A stretch of DNA of 6,072 nucleotides from Deltaproteobacteria bacterium (GTDB lineage: Bacteria > Desulfobacterota > DSM-4660 > Desulfatiglandales > HGW-15), in NCBI GenBank assembly GCA_016926135.1, contig JAFGPH010000488.1:1-6072 (forward strand), written 5' to 3'. The position numbers were made by a program, and so were the translations under genes. This document shows, piece by piece, positions 2 to 6,072 of this stretch. Numbering within the stretch: position 1 is the stretch's first letter; each line of letters starts with the position of its first letter. A model generated the notes under the pieces. That model worked only from the letters and a program-made list of their open reading frames with translations, searched no databases and had not been told where the DNA came from.

Positions 2-118
2 TCTGAGACCAAGCTGCCCATCAACATCGCCGAAGACGCGCTCTCCGCCGTTGCCATCGGTGCCGGCAAGGCCCTGACCAACATCTCCATTCTGCGGAAC
101 CTGGGAAGAGACCATTAG
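2..118 (+). CDS. mreB: MreB C-terminal end (partial; 5' part lies outside the window)
   Basis: Reading from base 2, an open frame of 38 codons ends in TAG at 116-118. The translation contains LPINIAEDALSAVAIGAGKA, which matches the C-terminal block of bacterial MreB and MreB-like actin homologues, where a conserved (L/M)P(V/I).(A/I)(E/D)(D/N)P...VA.G(T/A)GKALE stretch closes the ATP-binding fold. MreB forms membrane-associated filaments that direct lateral cell-wall synthesis, so the organism is probably rod-shaped. The typical Pro of the EDP motif is Ala here, and the tail is short and charged (LGRDH). Only the last tenth or so of the protein is present, so paralogues such as Mbl or MreBH cannot be excluded. 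No mreC follows; the next gene on this strand is pepF after a 256-base gap, so mreB appears to end its transcription unit here. Confidence 0.75.
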   Translation, partial: SETKLPINIAEDALSAVAIGAGKALTNISILRNLGRDH

Positions 119-374: not shown

Positions 375-2153
375 GTGACGGAAGACGTGATATGGGATCT
401 GGGCGACCTTTATGATGGCCCGGACGATCCCAGGCTCAAGGCAGACAGGGACCGGTGCCTGGAAAAGGCGGACCATTTTGCCGAGGTCTACGCGAGGAAG
501 GGGGCTCATCCCGCGCCGGAGGGCCTGCACGAAGCGCTCTCCAGACTGGAGAAGATTGAGGAGACCTGCCGGAGGGTCGTCTCTTTTGCCTATCTCTCCT
601 TTATCACCCAAACCGCCGACCCGCGTATCGGCCGGCTCTGGCAGTCCGCCCAGGAACTGGAGAGCACCGTCCGGCGAAAGACCCTCTTCTTCTCCCTGGA
701 ATGGACGGGGCTGGACGATCCGCAGGCACGTTCCCTGATGGAGCACGAGATGCTCCGGTCCTACCGTCATTACCTGGAGAGGTTGAGAGCCTACCGCCCG
801 CACCACCTGTCGGAACCGGAAGAACAGGCCATGGAAGCGCTCTCCCTCTCCAGCCGGAAGGCCTGGGTAGACCTTTTCGACAAGGTCATCGGGCAGGCCC
901 CCTTCGGAGAAGAGGCTCGGCCCCTTTCCAGGGTGCTCGCCGATCTCTACCACCCTGAGCGGGAACGCAGAAGGAAGGCCGCATTGGACCTGTCGACGGG
1001 CCTGGAAGGAATCCTGCCTCTCGTCGCCCACATCTGCAATGCCCTCCTGCTGGACAAATCCCTCAGGGACGACCTCCACTTCTACCCGCACTGGCTGCGC
1101 GACATGAATCTCCGGAACGAGGCGTGCGACGATCAGGTTGAGGCCCTGGTTCATGCCGTGACCTCCCGGTATGATCTTGTCCGGGACTACTACACCCTGA
1201 AGCGGGAGATTCTGGGAATACCGGAACTCTGGGACTATGACCGTTATGCACCCCTGCCCGGCTGGCCCCACAAGGTATACACATGGAAGGAGGCGGGAGA
1301 GATGGTGCTCGCCGCTTTTCACGACTTCTCCCCGGAATTTGCACAGGTGGCGGACCTCTTCTTCCAGAATCACTGGATCCACGCCGCCCCCATCCCCGGC
1401 AAGGCCGATGGGGCCTTTTCCCATCCCACGGTGCCTTCCTGCCACCCTTACATCTCCCTTCACTTCACGGGGACCCGGCGGGACGTGATGACCCTGGCCC
1501 ACGAACTGGGCCACGGCGTTCACCAGGTCCTCTGCCGTGAGCAAGGCCTTTACAACAGCCGGGTTCCGCCCGCCCTGGGTGAGATCGCCTCCGTCTTCGG
1601 GGAGATGCTTGTCTTCAGAAGGCTCCTGGAAAGGGCGCAGACGGCCCCTGAGAGACTGGCCATCCTGTGCGGGAGGGTGGAAGAGATCTTTTCCACCACC
1701 TTCCGGCAGATCGCCCTCCACCGCTTTGAGGCCTCCCTTCACACCGAGAGACGCAGTCATGGGGAGCTCACACCGGAACGCATCTGTGACCTCTGGACAT
1801 CCACCCAGCAGGAGATGTTCGGGGATAGCCTCCTCCTCGGGAACCACTACTGCGTTTGGTGGGCTTACATCCCCCACTTTTTTCATTACCCGGGATATGT
1901 CCATGCCTATGCCTTTGCGGAACTGACGGCCCTCTCCCTCTTTGAGCAATACGAACGCGACAAGCTGGCCTTTGTCGTCATCTACCTGGACCTGTTGAAA
2001 AGGGGCTCCAGCGAAGGACCGGAAGAGATGATGAAGCCCTTCGGCATCGATCTTTCCGATCCCGCCTTCTTTCGGCAGGGACTCACGATCGTGGAGGATC
2101 TGGTGAGGGAAGCATGGAAGAGTACAATTGATACCAGTTCTCCCCGAGGATAG
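375..2153 (+). CDS. pepF: Oligoendopeptidase F, M3 family zinc metallopeptidase
   Basis: This 592-residue protein has the usual length and layout of PepF-type M3 peptidases, which cleave short peptides in the cytoplasm with one zinc ion. The N-terminal helical half includes the oligopeptidase F region (about residues 110-180, with the LSEPEEQ and KAWVDLFDKV blocks). The catalytic half carries HELGH at residues 376-380 (H376 and H380 as zinc ligands, E377 as catalytic base) and GEIASVFGE at about 402-410, where E403 is the probable third ligand. The aromatic YPGYVHAYAF block near the C-terminus fits the substrate-binding Tyr/His region. No signal peptide or membrane segment is visible. The GTG start at 375 is supported by GAGAGG at 363-368, six bases upstream. 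The length and motifs suggest the pepF/M3 subfamily rather than thimet oligopeptidase or Dcp. Its 3' end overlaps the convergent dipeptidase gene by 71 bp. It is probably general peptide turnover; a link to the neighbouring repeat peptide is only speculative. Confidence 0.93.
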   Translation: MTEDVIWDLGDLYDGPDDPRLKADRDRCLEKADHFAEVYARKGAHPAPEGLHEALSRLEKIEETCRRVVSFAYLSFITQTADPRIGRLWQSAQELESTVRRKTLFFSLEWTGLDDPQARSLMEHEMLRSYRHYLERLRAYRPHHLSEPEEQAMEALSLSSRKAWVDLFDKVIGQAPFGEEARPLSRVLADLYHPERERRRKAALDLSTGLEGILPLVAHICNALLLDKSLRDDLHFYPHWLRDMNLRNEACDDQVEALVHAVTSRYDLVRDYYTLKREILGIPELWDYDRYAPLPGWPHKVYTWKEAGEMVLAAFHDFSPEFAQVADLFFQNHWIHAAPIPGKADGAFSHPTVPSCHPYISLHFTGTRRDVMTLAHELGHGVHQVLCREQGLYNSRVPPALGEIASVFGEMLVFRRLLERAQTAPERLAILCGRVEEIFSTTFRQIALHRFEASLHTERRSHGELTPERICDLWTSTQQEMFGDSLLLGNHYCVWWAYIPHFFHYPGYVHAYAFAELTALSLFEQYERDKLAFVVIYLDLLKRGSSEGPEEMMKPFGIDLSDPAFFRQGLTIVEDLVREAWKSTIDTSSPRG

Positions 2154-3066
2154 CGGCAATGGACGGGTCCGGGTAGCCTTGTCGTGAAAGGAGTTCTGCC
2201 AGATCCTGGAGCCTGCCCATGTGTTCCAGTCCCTCATTCTCCCCGTCGAAACCTCCGAAATCCGAGCCCAGGGCCACCCCCCGGAAACCGTATTTCTGAA
2301 CCAACCCGTCCACCTGTTCGAACACGTCCCTGATCGTTGCGGAGCCGTCAGGAGTGAGCATCTCCGGGTTCACGCTCACCCCTACCGTGCCGTGACGGGC
2401 CATGAGGATCTTCACCTGCTCATTCGAGAGATTCCTCGGCATGTCGCAAAACCTGCGAAAACCGGTATGGGAGGAAATCAGGGCGCCGTCGAAGAGATCC
2501 ATGACATCCCAGAAGCACGGTTCGGCAAGGTGGGCCACATCCAGCACCACTCCCTGCCGATTCAAGGCGCGCGCCACCTGCCGTCCCATCGGCGTGAGTC
2601 CTTCCGGGGAGGCGACGCCGTTCCCGTCGCCAAGGCGGTTTCTTCCCGCATGGGTGAGACCTGCGGCGACAAAGCCCCGCCCCTTGAGATCGAAGGCGAT
2701 GTCGTCGGCAAGGGCGTCCGCGTTTTCAAGGAGGTTCAGGGCGCCCGGGCCCCCTGCGCCTTCCATGCAATCATTCAGATCCTCTCGTGATCGGATGACA
2801 GGAAGCTCGCTCAGGTAATGCTCAGCGTAGTGGAGGAGTTCCTGGAGGTGAGGGAGAGAGCGGCCGGGCCCGTTGTGGGTATCCTCACAATAGAAGGCGG
2901 AGACAAGGACCCGGACGTTGCCTTCCTCCAGTCCCAGGGGCGTCACCTCTCCTTCGTTCAGCTCCGCGAAATGCCTGCCGGGCCACTTGCGCCTCATCAT
3001 GTAGAGGAGGTCCACATGGCCGTCGATCAAGGGAAGGGGATTACCTCGTGGAGACAAGGAATTCAC
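2083..3066 (-). CDS. M19-family (renal/membrane dipeptidase-type) metal-dependent peptidase
   Basis: This 327-residue protein belongs to the amidohydrolase-fold M19 family, which hydrolyses dipeptides, often with broad or D-residue tolerance, using two zinc ions. The expected ligands are all visible: H17 and D19 in DGHVDL, E114 in LLENADAL (bridging Glu), H179 in DVAHL, H200 in ISSHTGF, and the catalytic Asp D269 in LGSDFGG. R211 in PRNLSNEQ matches the conserved substrate-binding Arg. The usual GSDFDG motif is GSDFGG here. The C-terminal ILGENWYQLY matches the closing helix of the family. No signal peptide is seen, so it is probably cytoplasmic. The frame begins with GTG at 3066, overlapping the methyltransferase end by 26 bp. 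A TTG at 3057, eight bases after a GGAG, has the better ribosome-binding site and would give 324 residues. Last in the minus-strand operon, it may trim or recycle peptides from the repeat-peptide pathway (inference) or simply be housekeeping. Confidence 0.9.
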   Translation of the reverse strand: MNSLSPRGNPLPLIDGHVDLLYMMRRKWPGRHFAELNEGEVTPLGLEEGNVRVLVSAFYCEDTHNGPGRSLPHLQELLHYAEHYLSELPVIRSREDLNDCMEGAGGPGALNLLENADALADDIAFDLKGRGFVAAGLTHAGRNRLGDGNGVASPEGLTPMGRQVARALNRQGVVLDVAHLAEPCFWDVMDLFDGALISSHTGFRRFCDMPRNLSNEQVKILMARHGTVGVSVNPEMLTPDGSATIRDVFEQVDGLVQKYGFRGVALGSDFGGFDGENEGLEHMGRLQDLAELLSRQGYPDPSIAAILGENWYQLYSSMLPSPDPPRS

Positions 3067-3982
3067 TCCGGATCATCTCATAGTGGTTGCGGTGATTCCG
3101 GATCATCCAGGAAACCCTCCCCTCATCCCGGATCTGCCAGGGTGGGCCGGTGATCCCCTCTTCGCCCTCCAAAAGGCGACGCACGTTCCGGATGCCTTCT
3201 CCCCCGAACCGCCCCCCCCCCTTCCCTCCAAGCCAGTCCTCCACCCCGGCGCTCTCCTCGGACCAGGAGAAGGGATCGGAAAAGAGGAAGAAGGCGCCCT
3301 TCCCCTTTGCGACCCGGTTCATCTCCTGGAGATGCCGCAGGGGCTTCGGGAGCTTGTCGATCAGATTGAGGGATGCCAGCATGGAGAACGCATCATGCGG
3401 AAAAGGCAGCGCGAGGGCGTCACCCACGATGAACTCCGCATTCTCCGGACGCCACCCCTCTGCCCTGACGATGGTCCTGGGTTCAGTGAGGCGGCCTTCC
3501 ATGATGAGGGGAAAGGTGACGCTGCCCTCGATCATCAGTTTCCTCGCAAGTCTCACAAAGGTCGCCGAGGTGTCCAGGCCCACCACAAAATCGCATCGCG
3601 GGCTCACCTCAAAGGCGAAACGCCCCACAGCGCAGCCCGCATCCAGACCGAGGCCGTGCCCACCCGGGACCAGGCCGGACCAGGCTGCGTACGCCCTTCC
3701 TGCCTCGGGATCCCCGAAAAGGTCACCGAAGTGGCTCCACAGGTAGGACGAGACCACGGCCTCGGTCTCGTAACGGCGCCGGGTCGCGTTCGCCCGGGAT
3801 GAGGCCGGAGGCAGCAAAACGCCCACCCCGTCCTCTACCGGGTACTCTGCGCCGCACCCCGGGCAGGTCAGGCGGCCGGTGACGATATCGTCCCCGTCAG
3901 CGCCTGCGATTGATCCCCTGAGGGGCTTCTCCTCCGGAAGACATGCCGGGCAGATGAGGAGTTCCAGGAGTCGTCTTTTCAT
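3041..3982 (-). CDS. Trm112-like zinc-ribbon plus class I SAM-dependent methyltransferase
   Basis: The 313-residue product has two parts. Residues 1-60 form a Trm112-like zinc ribbon with paired cysteines CPAC (C11, C14) and CPGC (C40, C43), followed by EYPVEDGVGVLLP. Residues about 70-313 are a class I methyltransferase: glycine-rich SAM-binding motif LDAGCAVGRF (about 113-122), acidic residue D137 in VVGLD, and GDALALPFP (about 187-195). The C-terminal block with PPWQIRDEG and WMIRNHRNHYE looks family-specific and ends in frame. The substrate cannot be read from sequence; small molecules, peptides and proteins are all possible. The frame is open back to an ATG at 4081, but ATG 3982 is preferred because Trm112-like domains usually begin this close to the first CxxC; its ribosome-binding site is weak (GAG ten bases upstream). 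It lies 208 bases downstream of the repeat-peptide gene and overlaps the dipeptidase start, suggesting co-transcription. A run of ten G lies inside the coding sequence. Confidence 0.85.
   Translation of the reverse strand: MKRRLLELLICPACLPEEKPLRGSIAGADGDDIVTGRLTCPGCGAEYPVEDGVGVLLPPASSRANATRRRYETEAVVSSYLWSHFGDLFGDPEAGRAYAAWSGLVPGGHGLGLDAGCAVGRFAFEVSPRCDFVVGLDTSATFVRLARKLMIEGSVTFPLIMEGRLTEPRTIVRAEGWRPENAEFIVGDALALPFPHDAFSMLASLNLIDKLPKPLRHLQEMNRVAKGKGAFFLFSDPFSWSEESAGVEDWLGGKGGGRFGGEGIRNVRRLLEGEEGITGPPWQIRDEGRVSWMIRNHRNHYEMIRSEFLVSTR
3212..3221 (-). repeat. Ten-G homopolymer inside the methyltransferase gene
   Basis: The plus strand has ten consecutive C, so the methyltransferase coding strand has ten consecutive G, encoding the end of Lys and three Gly in KGGGRF. 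Gain or loss of one base here would shift the last roughly 55 residues out of frame. The present length keeps the frame and yields a plausible conserved C-terminus. Such tracts can drive phase variation and are also prone to sequencing error. Confidence 0.9.
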
Positions 3983-4131: not shown

Positions 4132-4165
4132 GGAGCGGCCCGAACCCTGCGGTTCGGCCCGCTCC
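4132..4165 (-). promoter_or_regulatory. 15-bp GC-rich hairpin just downstream of the repeat-peptide gene
   Basis: GGAGCGGCCCGAACC (4132-4146) pairs with GGTTCGGCCCGCTCC (4151-4165) around a four-base loop, with a single C/C mismatch (G/G in minus-strand RNA). It begins 25 bases after the peptide stop codon. There is no T-run on either side, so it is not a typical intrinsic terminator. Its position fits a partial terminator or an mRNA 3'-end stabiliser that keeps precursor message in excess over the downstream enzymes, an arrangement common in peptide-natural-product operons. The structure is directly visible; the role is inferred. Confidence 0.7.
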
Positions 4166-4190: not shown

Positions 4191-4346
4191 TCAGGCCGGC
4201 GCATGGCATGCCGGGGCATGGCACGCCGGGGCGTGGCATGAGGGTGCGTGACAAGAGGGCGCGTGGCACGAAGGCGCATGGCACGAGGGCGCATGACAAA
4301 TGGCCGCGCAAGAGACTCTTTTCTCCACCTGCTTCATCTTCAGCAT
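4191..4346 (-). CDS. Cys-His-Ala-Pro repeat peptide, probable RiPP precursor
   Basis: This 51-residue peptide starts at ATG 4346 and stops at TGA 4193-4191. The N-terminal part is MLKMKQVEKRVS, then CAAI, then seven pentapeptide units: CHAPS four times (residues 17-36) and CHAPA three times (37-51). It has eight cysteines (13, 17, 22, 27, 32, 37, 42, 47) and seven histidines. The seven DNA units are all different, but only third codon positions vary, apart from the base that makes Ser into Ala, so this frame is clearly under selection. The ribosome-binding site is near-perfect, seven bases upstream. The gene begins four bases after a radical SAM gene whose product ends in a PqqD-like peptide-binding domain, and a methyltransferase follows. 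These points fit a repeat-type RiPP precursor with a short basic leader and a repeated Cys core. I do not recognise it as a named family. Despite its sequence it is unrelated to the CHAP amidase domain. A metal-binding peptide is an alternative. Confidence 0.9.
   Translation of the reverse strand: MLKMKQVEKRVSCAAICHAPSCHAPSCHAPSCHAPSCHAPACHAPACHAPA
4194..4298 (-). repeat. Seven tandem 15-bp coding repeats of the CHAP(S/A) peptide
   Basis: Seven units of exactly 15 bases fill 105 bases with no spacer. Consensus on the minus strand is TGy-CAy-GCn-CCn-(T/G)Cn. Across the seven copies the variable columns are 3, 6, 9, 12 and 15 (all wobble positions) and column 13 (Ser to Ala); the other nine columns are invariant. 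Copies 1-4 encode Ser and copies 5-7 encode Ala at the fifth position. Confidence 0.95.
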
Positions 4347-4360
4347 AGGATCACCTCCTT
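4347..4360 (-). promoter_or_regulatory. Extended Shine-Dalgarno of the repeat-peptide gene, overlapping the radical SAM stop codon
   Basis: On the minus strand 4360-4348 reads AAGGAGGTGATCC, a 13-base complement of the usual 3' end of bacterial 16S rRNA. The core GGAGG (4358-4354) lies seven bases before the ATG at 4346. The same bases encode the last Arg-Arg codons and the TGA stop of the radical SAM gene. This predicts very strong translation of the peptide and possible coupling to the enzyme gene. Confidence 0.92.
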
Positions 4361-6072
4361 TCTTGAACGGTTCCGGGCGGTGCCTCCCGAAGGAGGTTCA
4401 TCTCCCAGAGCCCGATTAATGCCTCTCGGCATGCTTCTTCAAAGGCACGGTACTCCATGTTCTCTCCATATCGCTCAAAGAGGGTGCCCGTGATTTTATC
4501 CACCGTGGCCGACCCGTCGCACAGGACCAGAAACTCCTTTCCGAAGTCGTTGATCTGCGTGACCTCCAGTTGATTCCCCTCCTGACGGAACACGAGCCAG
4601 GTCGGATCAAGGGGGTACTCCGCCCTGAAAACTCCCGCCTTCATGTCCTCGATGATGGCAGGGACGTTCCTTTCAAAGCCCCGCACCACCACGTTCCCCC
4701 TGCGAAGGGGCATCCAATTGGAGAGGCGGCAGAGATCGATGTTGCCCGCCCGCTCCGCCTGAGTGAACCTGCCCGCCTCCAGGGCGGCCTTCTCATAGGC
4801 CAGAACGTCCTTCAGATGAGCCCACCCCGCTGCGTGGTCTCCGCCCTGCACAGACAGGACAAAGGGCGGGAAGTGTCGGTAGCACTCGGGGGCGGTAAGG
4901 GTCATTCCTTCCCTGTTCTCCCTGACCCTGACCCATTCCATCCACTCCAGAAACAGCTCACTCACCGATCTTCCTTCAGCGATACTGAGGAGCAGGAAGG
5001 TCTTTGGATAGAGGTTGACCATCAAAGGGAAATAGCTCGTAATCGTATAAAGCGCGGAAAGAGACATTCCCCTGCACGATACGTTGTAGAAACTGCTGAA
5101 CAGAAAGGGGTCGCTTCGGATCAGGTCCTCGTCCGAGGCAAGCCTGTGCCCCCCGTCGAACTCCAGCCCCAGGGAGAAATAGGTGTCCACGCCTCGGATC
5201 AGCCCCTCGTGAACCTTCTCATGGAGTTCCGTTCCCGGCAGCACGGTGGGCATCTGGATCAGGGGATTGCTGTTTCCCTGGATACCCGTCTTCAGGGCCA
5301 GTTTCAGGGTCTCGTCCACGTCCTCCCTCTCCTCCTCGGGAAACCCGATCACGAAGCTGAGGGTGGGCACCATGCCCTGATCGGTGGTCTCTTGTACCCG
5401 CTGATAGAGGATGCCCTCGTCAATGTGCTTCCGGATGAAGGACAGGGTCCTCTTCGAGCCCGAGTCGATGCCGTAGCACATGGACTCGCAGCCTGCCTCC
5501 CGCATCAGGGCCAGAAGCCGTTCATCGACCGTATCCAGCCTGGATATGCAGTACCAGGGAAGACGGTTCAAGCCTGCGGTGATGACCTCTTGGCAGAATT
5601 CCTCCACAAAGGTGCGCTCCGCCGTGAACTGATCGTAGGCCAGGAGAAAGCACTCCGCGCCGTACTTCTCGTGAAGTTGTCTCATTTCGAGCACAAGGCG
5701 ATCCACGGAAAAGGTCCTGGTCCTCCTGCGCCACAACCGTGACTCCGAGCAGTACACGCAACGGTGGGGGCATCCCCGGCCCACCTCCAGGATGGCGATG
5801 CTCCGGGGGATCCCGCAGGCGTCCCGGTATACGGAAAAGGGCGGGACAAGACGGTAATCCGGAATGGGCAGGTGATTCAGATCGGGGATGAGGTCTCTGT
5901 CCGGGTTTCGCACAATGTCGCCCCCCCTGCGAAAGGTAAGCCCGGCCACCGTGTTCAAGTCCCGGTCCTTCTCATACGCCTCAACAAGTTCCCGGAAGGT
6001 GATCTCCCCCTCTCCCCTGATCACCCCGTCGATCCAGGGGAAGGAGCAAAGGGTTCTTTCGTCCACAAATGA
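4351..6072 (-). CDS. Cobalamin-type radical SAM enzyme with C-terminal PqqD-like (RRE) domain (partial, N-terminus outside the window)
   Basis: The frame stays open to base 6072, so the GTG at 6066 is not a convincing start; the gene continues off the edge. Residues are counted from that GTG codon. The first part, FPWIDGVIRGEGEITFRELV and then LNHLPIPDYRL (64-74), is the junction typical of B12-binding radical SAM proteins, so a cobalamin-binding domain is expected upstream (inference). The radical SAM core has C99, C103 and C106 in GRGCPHRCVYC, which bind the 4Fe-4S cluster, and later YGIDSGS and VIGFPEEEREDVDETL. A less familiar stretch follows (about 300-480). Residues about 487-560, with VTQINDFGKEFLVLCDGSATV and ALIGLWEMNLL, resemble the PqqD winged-helix fold that recognises RiPP leader peptides. 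The repeat-peptide gene starts four bases after its stop. Likely role: peptide modification such as C-methylation, thioether formation or another radical-based change. The reaction cannot be told from sequence. Confidence 0.88.
   Translation of the reverse strand, partial: SFVDERTLCSFPWIDGVIRGEGEITFRELVEAYEKDRDLNTVAGLTFRRGGDIVRNPDRDLIPDLNHLPIPDYRLVPPFSVYRDACGIPRSIAILEVGRGCPHRCVYCSESRLWRRRTRTFSVDRLVLEMRQLHEKYGAECFLLAYDQFTAERTFVEEFCQEVITAGLNRLPWYCISRLDTVDERLLALMREAGCESMCYGIDSGSKRTLSFIRKHIDEGILYQRVQETTDQGMVPTLSFVIGFPEEEREDVDETLKLALKTGIQGNSNPLIQMPTVLPGTELHEKVHEGLIRGVDTYFSLGLEFDGGHRLASDEDLIRSDPFLFSSFYNVSCRGMSLSALYTITSYFPLMVNLYPKTFLLLSIAEGRSVSELFLEWMEWVRVRENREGMTLTAPECYRHFPPFVLSVQGGDHAAGWAHLKDVLAYEKAALEAGRFTQAERAGNIDLCRLSNWMPLRRGNVVVRGFERNVPAIIEDMKAGVFRAEYPLDPTWLVFRQEGNQLEVTQINDFGKEFLVLCDGSATVDKITGTLFERYGENMEYRAFEEACREALIGLWEMNLLREAPPGTVQERR

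Follow-up and report, generated by a model that had tools for sequence, protein, structure and literature searches.

A Cys-His repeat peptide beside a B12-type radical SAM enzyme: a probable new pathway to a sulfur-rich peptide or small thiol

We analysed a stretch of 6,072 nucleotides from a Deltaproteobacteria bacterium (contig JAFGPH010000488.1; the whole stretch is called the window below), which carries the gene of a short repeat peptide next to that of a B12-type radical S-adenosylmethionine (SAM) enzyme. An earlier reading of the letters alone (the sequence-only reading) had described a 51-residue peptide of seven Cys-His-Ala-Pro-Ser/Ala units, four bases after the radical SAM gene, and had interpreted the pair as a candidate system for making a ribosomally synthesized and post-translationally modified peptide (RiPP). 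The open reading frames (ORFs) are as described there; the four bases between the enzyme's stop codon and the ATG of the peptide, which we call the precursor, are 4347-4350. The features of the precursor and enzyme, in window coordinates, are:

4191-4346, minus strand: precursor peptide of 51 amino acids, MLKMKQVEKRVSCAAICHAPSCHAPSCHAPSCHAPSCHAPACHAPACHAPA, from the ORF translation
4299-4346, minus strand: leader of the precursor, MLKMKQVEKRVSCAAI
4194-4298, minus strand: core of the precursor, seven CHAP[SA] units, with the stop codon at 4191-4193
4348-4360, minus strand: Shine-Dalgarno match of 13 bases, AAGGAGGTGATCC, before the precursor ATG and overlapping the 3' end of the radical SAM gene
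4132-4165, minus strand: RNA hairpin directly behind the precursor (-43.3 kcal/mol for 81 nucleotides, z -5.5 against dinucleotide shuffles)
4351-6072, minus strand: radical SAM enzyme of the B12 type (PF04055; cluster motif CPHRCVYC), 573 codons, 5' end beyond the window
4354-4701, minus strand: C-terminal domain of that enzyme (residues 458-573), resembling PqqD and RiPP recognition elements (RREs)

The CHAP[SA] repeat is the sole tandem array reported within the window, and two tandem CHxP units appeared in none of 300 shuffles of the window in blocks of two bases, so that the repeat is not a product of chance. Scanning genome contigs with a 22-row alignment of the radical SAM enzyme gave 46 loci, all titled as metagenome-assembled genomes (724,901 bases, flanks up to 10 kb); these were chosen through the enzyme, and repeat peptides were sought in other genomes only at loci found in this way. 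A short peptide with a similar leader lies directly downstream of the enzyme in 43 of the 46 loci: 31 of these peptides have at least three CHxP units, three are intermediate and nine are without Cys-His. The precursor starts within 40 nucleotides of the enzyme stop codon, overlaps counted, in 37 of the 43, and all 32 places in the 46 loci with two or more tandem CHxP units are on the same strand as the radical SAM match and at most 500 nucleotides behind it. We also drew 395 genomes from the phylum of the genome that supplied locus L016; 13 carry the enzyme (E up to 1e-120), at least three of which also supply loci of the 46, and all 13 have such a peptide. The association on which the sequence-only reading depended, a repeat beside homologues of the enzyme, thus holds.

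The repeat unit was counted in 31 CHxP peptides, the window's own and those of 30 loci; a further locus, which has masked bases, was omitted. Each contains four to twelve units, and together they contain 208, of which 168 are CHAP, 28 CHGP and 12 CHSP. Because the pattern counted was CH[AGSV]P, the telling figure is the number of Cys and His outside units: 208 of the 209 core Cys are inside, each followed by His, and one Cys and one His are outside. Of the 177 spacers between units, 171 consist of a single residue and six of 4-7 residues; breaks in spacing occur in the peptides of L029, L030 and L032. The near confinement of Cys and His to the units, together with the one-residue spacers, indicates that the working unit is C-H-x-P. 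Codon differences between units of the same peptide, counted pairwise, were synonymous in 1203 cases versus 188 non-synonymous, an excess indicating that the amino acids are what is kept.

Across the loci the leader is still recognisable while the core shifts from CHxP repeats to the YVVPT type. The three intermediate peptides hold remnants of the unit (CHVPT, CHVPN and CHESS..SHVPT), and the nine Cys-less cores read YVVPT, FVVPT and similar, with YVVAI and YVPN among them. The Cys-less type is nested within the enzyme tree of the loci (rows L001-L046, window excluded, midpoint root).

Signals for expression recur around the precursors of the window and the 43 loci, 44 in all. In front of 41 there are 7 or more bases matching the Shine-Dalgarno sequence, compared with 1.3% of 1186 random ATGs, and behind 35 lies a hairpin with z below -2 (60 single-base shuffles each). 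The hairpin may act as a processing signal or a partial terminator.

A protein search with the radical SAM enzyme returned 655 matches. In the best 120 of these, the matches listed, full-length homologues 72-74% identical to the window protein contain both PF04055 and the B12-binding domain PF02310, which is present in the 119 other listed homologues; the window copy lacks that end, in agreement with the earlier suggestion that the window had cut the domain off. Homologues with names, among the matches listed, are mostly Thermodesulfobacteriota/Deltaproteobacteria. The CxxxCxxC cluster motif is present in the window enzyme as CPHRCVYC, and eight further Cys are near-invariant in the enzyme alignment (P0005 residues 79, 194, 249, 268, 283, 303, 307 and 441) and are retained with either precursor type. 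The maturase had been thought not to be of the SPASM kind, and indeed no SPASM or Twitch domain was matched by Pfam in the window enzyme at E up to 1. AlphaFold2 models of the enzyme match the folds of TokK, TsrM, AprD4, MgmA, CysS and OxsB. Three of these bear the names of methylases (TokK, TsrM and MgmA), CysS we take to be a fourth, and the remaining two, AprD4 and OxsB, do not belong to that class.

The tail of the enzyme had been called PqqD-like, a description that stands in part. Its AlphaFold2 model resembles, on structural comparison, RREs bound to leader peptides, and 20 of the 34 tail sequences used, from 47 available, match PqqD at E up to 0.01 (best E 1.2e-6); the window tail itself, at 15.2 bits, is under the Pfam cut-off of 23.4. 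The tail is thus predicted, from models, to be an RRE domain.

The precursor is below the cut-off of every curated family scanned. A plasmid search with it gave no match, a protein search gave no candidate, the word method being limited on a repeat, and a literature search found no published description of a CHxP peptide in open-licence papers; the supposition that the CHAP(S/A) unit lies outside known families is borne out in these sources. A Pfam match of the peptide to Keratin_B2_2 (E 0.0025) was below the cut-off and attributed to composition. The string CHAPSCH also fits CX4CH, the heme motif of cytochrome c; this identity was rejected on reading the leader, which is charged and unlike a signal peptide. 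Cys every five residues is a likeness to CefA (NF038108), the match being limited to the Cys-rich part of the window peptide; at 15.9 bits, with a cut-off of 30, membership was rejected. At E up to 0.1, 16 of 25 peptides match this profile (best E 0.0002), and a scan of the 395 genomes at E up to 0.001 gave one CHxP peptide (21.3 bits). The other matches, L131 (over the cut-off) and L132, are frames antisense to other repeat genes, have no such leader and were discarded.

A repeated-Cys precursor beside a radical SAM enzyme is also the arrangement of the CXXX-repeat peptides and ranthipeptides. Those systems employ SPASM-type maturases, whereas here the enzyme has no SPASM match and its homologues have a B12 domain. 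The nearest NCBIfam profile of the enzyme is ApyD (NF050148), which likewise joins B12-binding, radical SAM and RRE parts in one enzyme with a small adjacent precursor; the truncated window protein scores 178.6 bits and six full homologues 250.8-269.5 bits, and the cut-off of 750 bits was not reached. ApyD, of aminopyruvatide biosynthesis, yields beta-methyltyrosine, and ApyA, which has a CBX2-3G motif and a C-terminal Asp, is processed by an MNIO and a P450 (PMC11117315). Unlike ApyA, the precursor here is built of CHxP repeats and has a dipeptidase gene in its neighbourhood. In the 3-thiaglutamate pathway (TglA/TglHI) an amino acid is altered on a peptide and then released (PMC9016710). The scaffold logic proposed below would be similar, and the RRE-like tail resembles part of TglHI; in contrast to that pathway, no MNIO was seen in the window, and the residues concerned are encoded, many per precursor, rather than appended from tRNA.

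Behind the precursor and its hairpin, the window contains:

3041-3982, minus strand: SAM methyltransferase with an N-terminal Trm112-like zinc ribbon (PF03966) and a domain distantly related to OvoA/OvoM/OvsM
2083-3066, minus strand: M19 (renal-type) dipeptidase (PF01244, E 1.3e-54), overlapping the end of the methyltransferase gene
375-2153, plus strand: M3 family oligoendopeptidase, a convergent neighbour (TIGR02290, 521.7 bits, cut-off 561.7)
2-118, plus strand: C-terminal end of an ORF, which we take to resemble the actin-like MreB protein

The methyltransferase has a domain homologous to those of OvoM, OvsM and OvoA, and its best PDB matches are OvsM (E 3.7e-23), OvoA and OvoM. It differs from them in its Trm112 fusion, in forming a separate clade and in its score against TIGR04345, 96.7 bits with a cut-off of 170. 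It adjoins in 20 of the 31 CHxP loci as well as in the window. Among loci with at least 2.5 kb of downstream sequence, 17 of the 26 of CHxP type, counting the window, have it adjacent, whereas the 10 others, which include one lacking a precursor, never do (p 0.0004). In the phylum draw, a TIGR04345-like methyltransferase at E up to 1e-18 occurs in all 13 enzyme genomes versus 39 of the 382 without the enzyme (Fisher 8e-13); in 11 of the 13 its gene and that of the enzyme are neighbours on one strand. The N-terminal part of OvoA was over its cut-off in none of 13 related genomes, some of them incomplete, and matched weakly in three.

The M19 dipeptidase has PDB matches to Lmo2462, renal dipeptidase and GliJ. 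It lies near the enzyme in 15 of 31 CHxP loci (in one upstream on the other strand), in all three intermediate loci and in eight of nine Cys-less loci; in loci with enough sequence it was found in 15 of 26 CHxP loci, the window included, and in 10 of 10 others. A relative of the M3 oligoendopeptidase, possibly a helper in peptide breakdown, is near the radical SAM gene on the opposite strand in five of 31 CHxP loci and in the window. Beyond these partners, seven Cys-less systems (L031, L034-L037, L043 and L045) adjoin a phosphorylase-superfamily and a GDPD gene (Pfam for L036 and L034), some of them with what are presumably hopanoid biosynthesis-like genes further upstream. A class-V aminotransferase gene lies behind the operon on the opposite strand in L016, L020, L039-L042 and L046 (Pfam for L040).

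The methyltransferase family also occurs in other settings. In a set of 15 loci, 13 of them of the Trm112 type, molybdopterin oxidoreductase-like neighbours are present in L104, L105, L107, L111, L112, L115, L117 and L118, and in L108 and L113 the methyltransferase stands beside an M19 gene, with no enzyme within the short stretch covered. Pairs of the methyltransferase with a gene of the inositol-monophosphatase family, which we read as CysQ-like (Pfam for one), are found in L110, L119-L128 and L130, mostly in genomes whose Cys-less or single-unit precursor lies elsewhere; the exceptions are L125, which belongs with CHxP locus L029, and L130, which belongs with the precursor-less L019.

We take the locus to encode a new RiPP-type pathway that, unusually, pairs CHxP repeats with a B12-radical SAM-RRE enzyme and dipeptidases. 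The marks of such a pathway are found here, namely an encoded precursor beside the enzyme across genomes, a conserved leader with a changing core and a predicted RRE domain, and they support the RiPP interpretation made by the sequence-only reading. The mechanism that we favour, with a probability of roughly one half, is that of an operon in many Deltaproteobacteria-type genomes in which the RRE-like tail would hold the leader while the B12-radical SAM enzyme C-methylates the CHxP units, likely at the Cys beta-carbon. Binding of the leader by the tail is predicted from models. C-methylation of the repeat units appears likely because the nearest profile, ApyD, makes beta-methyltyrosine and because methylases are among the nearest solved folds; the Cys beta-carbon would most probably be the target because of the Cys/Ser/Tyr/Phe pattern at that place, and because of ApyD. 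The Trm112-methyltransferase might conceivably N-methylate His, and the M19 dipeptidase, with the M3 oligopeptidase in some loci, would release small products bearing a thiol or imidazole. The repeats would thereby yield many product units per precursor.

A number of observations weigh against this mechanism. No precursor was found at L001, whose radical SAM enzyme is 63% identical to the query P0005, nor at L019, nor at L007, where the sequence stops 81 bp past the radical SAM match. The Foldseek matches of the tail are weak, the best having an E-value of 0.017. The Cys-less precursors beside related enzymes at nine loci show that the enzyme family does not depend on Cys, and two of them, L036 (ending in VVAI) and L037 (ending in YVPN), fit the last-unit pattern poorly. 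Pro in the CHxP units varies no more than Cys does, making proline a possible target (the last L036 unit is without Pro), and the same is true of His, a constancy that simple methylation of Cys leaves unexplained. Both the methyltransferase and the dipeptidase are missing from the surroundings of L003, L012 and L038 (the L003 genome has a pair of the two on another contig), and the link from dipeptidase to peptide is drawn from gene neighbourhood. Nor is the Trm112-methyltransferase specific to CHxP loci: relatives are located elsewhere in 13 of 17 further genomes, it stands by molybdopterin oxidoreductase-like genes in eight of the 15 loci (by eye), suggesting a wider role for the family, and it has an inositol-monophosphatase-family neighbour in two of the 15 and in 10 of 11 of another set. 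In the methyltransferase tree the CHxP-adjacent copies are not separated from those in other contexts, and true OvoM is far apart. The wide contexts and the tree thus make the gene weak evidence only for N-methylation of His.

In a rival explanation, to which we give a small chance, the enzyme would join the Cys sulfur to the imidazole of the neighbouring His in a thiohistidine-like thioether, with OvoM-like N-methylation and peptidases then freeing an ovothiol-like thiol by an oxygen-free thiohistidine route. C-S bond formation is among the reported reactions of B12-radical SAM enzymes (PMC11117315), and the pairing of Cys with His is near-universal, but related enzymes at nine loci adjoin precursors without any Cys-His pair. 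Similarly, the PDB matches of the methyltransferase to OvsM, OvoA and OvoM are offset by its score far under TIGR04345 and its distance from OvoM in the tree, and its wide contexts weaken it as proof of an ovothiol route, from which a C-S lyase is also missing in the core operon. Full-score OvoM-type genes (TIGR04345, 306-326 bits; loci L064-L071 and L075) were found over the cut-off in eight of 11 genomes, all eight of the genus Geobacter, and the N-terminal part of OvoA was over its cut-off in none of these. However, these genes and the radical SAM gene are on different contigs, and one such genome (G013, perhaps incomplete) has no radical SAM gene. The gene beside the OvoM-type gene in five of nine Geobacter loci is, by eye, presumably that of the cobalt transporter CbiM. 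An equally small chance goes to the metal-binding array that the sequence-only reading had also raised: the mature peptide would remain intact in the cytoplasm and bind metal through its Cys-His pairs every five residues, with modification tuning the affinity. Both readings are serious rivals to the favoured mechanism. The regular series of four to twelve units, the very strong ribosome-binding sites, which suggest high output, and the precedent of the MNIO-made bufferins, which are metal-buffering RiPPs (PMC12452194), are consistent with it, whereas the dipeptidase and oligopeptidase neighbours suggest breakdown, three peptides break the spacing, and Cys-less relatives retain both leader and enzyme. 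The strong Shine-Dalgarno matches (41 of 44) and the hairpins directly behind the ORF (35 of 44) would also suit a Cys/His-sensing leader peptide that steers the genes behind it through the hairpin and is not a substrate. We hold this to be very improbable, as the N-terminal leader is kept at the amino-acid level even in precursors that have lost Cys and His, conservation extends to the x (mostly Ala) and Pro places, and the adjacent enzyme has a predicted RRE-like domain.

The favoured C-methylation could in principle be taken further, with a slim chance of being right, to a reading of the CHAP peptides as ribosomal penicillamine templates, in which the B12-radical SAM enzyme would doubly methylate each Cys beta-carbon and peptidases would free beta,beta-dimethylcysteine or its N-methyl-histidine dipeptides. 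Cells of Geobacter sulfurreducens convert labelled cysteine to labelled penicillamine, by a mechanism that the paper reporting it calls unclear, leaving it to be seen whether radical SAM chemistry is responsible (PMC9874932); the conversion has been tied to lower mercury methylation (PMC10173453). CHxP peptides are present at six Geobacter-genus loci (L012, L014, L021, L024, L038 and L044), with a dipeptidase at four and an adjacent methyltransferase at none, and a scan of the genus found the enzyme in seven of eight genomes. For the enzyme P0085, the best 120 of 445 matches, mostly without a species name, include entries named Geobacter metallireducens RCH3 and Geobacter sp.; in G. metallireducens the enzyme alone was observed, and the link to the penicillamine of G. 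sulfurreducens is drawn from related genomes. Against a template, labelled cysteine did not increase unlabelled penicillamine, and the conversion was fast, amounting to 15-65% of the added cysteine (PMC9874932). Free cysteine thus fits better as the substrate than a translated template does. If true, the template model would supply genes for Geobacter penicillamine, which alters mercury availability.

The locus, with counterparts in many relatives of sulfate- and metal-reducing bacteria, brings to light a precursor family and a B12-radical SAM subfamily, neither of which has a name, with a clear leader/RRE logic; it appears to be a way of making a sulfur-rich peptide or small thiol that has not been described before. 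The series of precursors on one enzyme scaffold, with repeats, a single unit or no Cys, offers natural material from which the chemistry could be deduced. A small thiol as the product would account for some of the thiol pool in sulfate and iron reducers.
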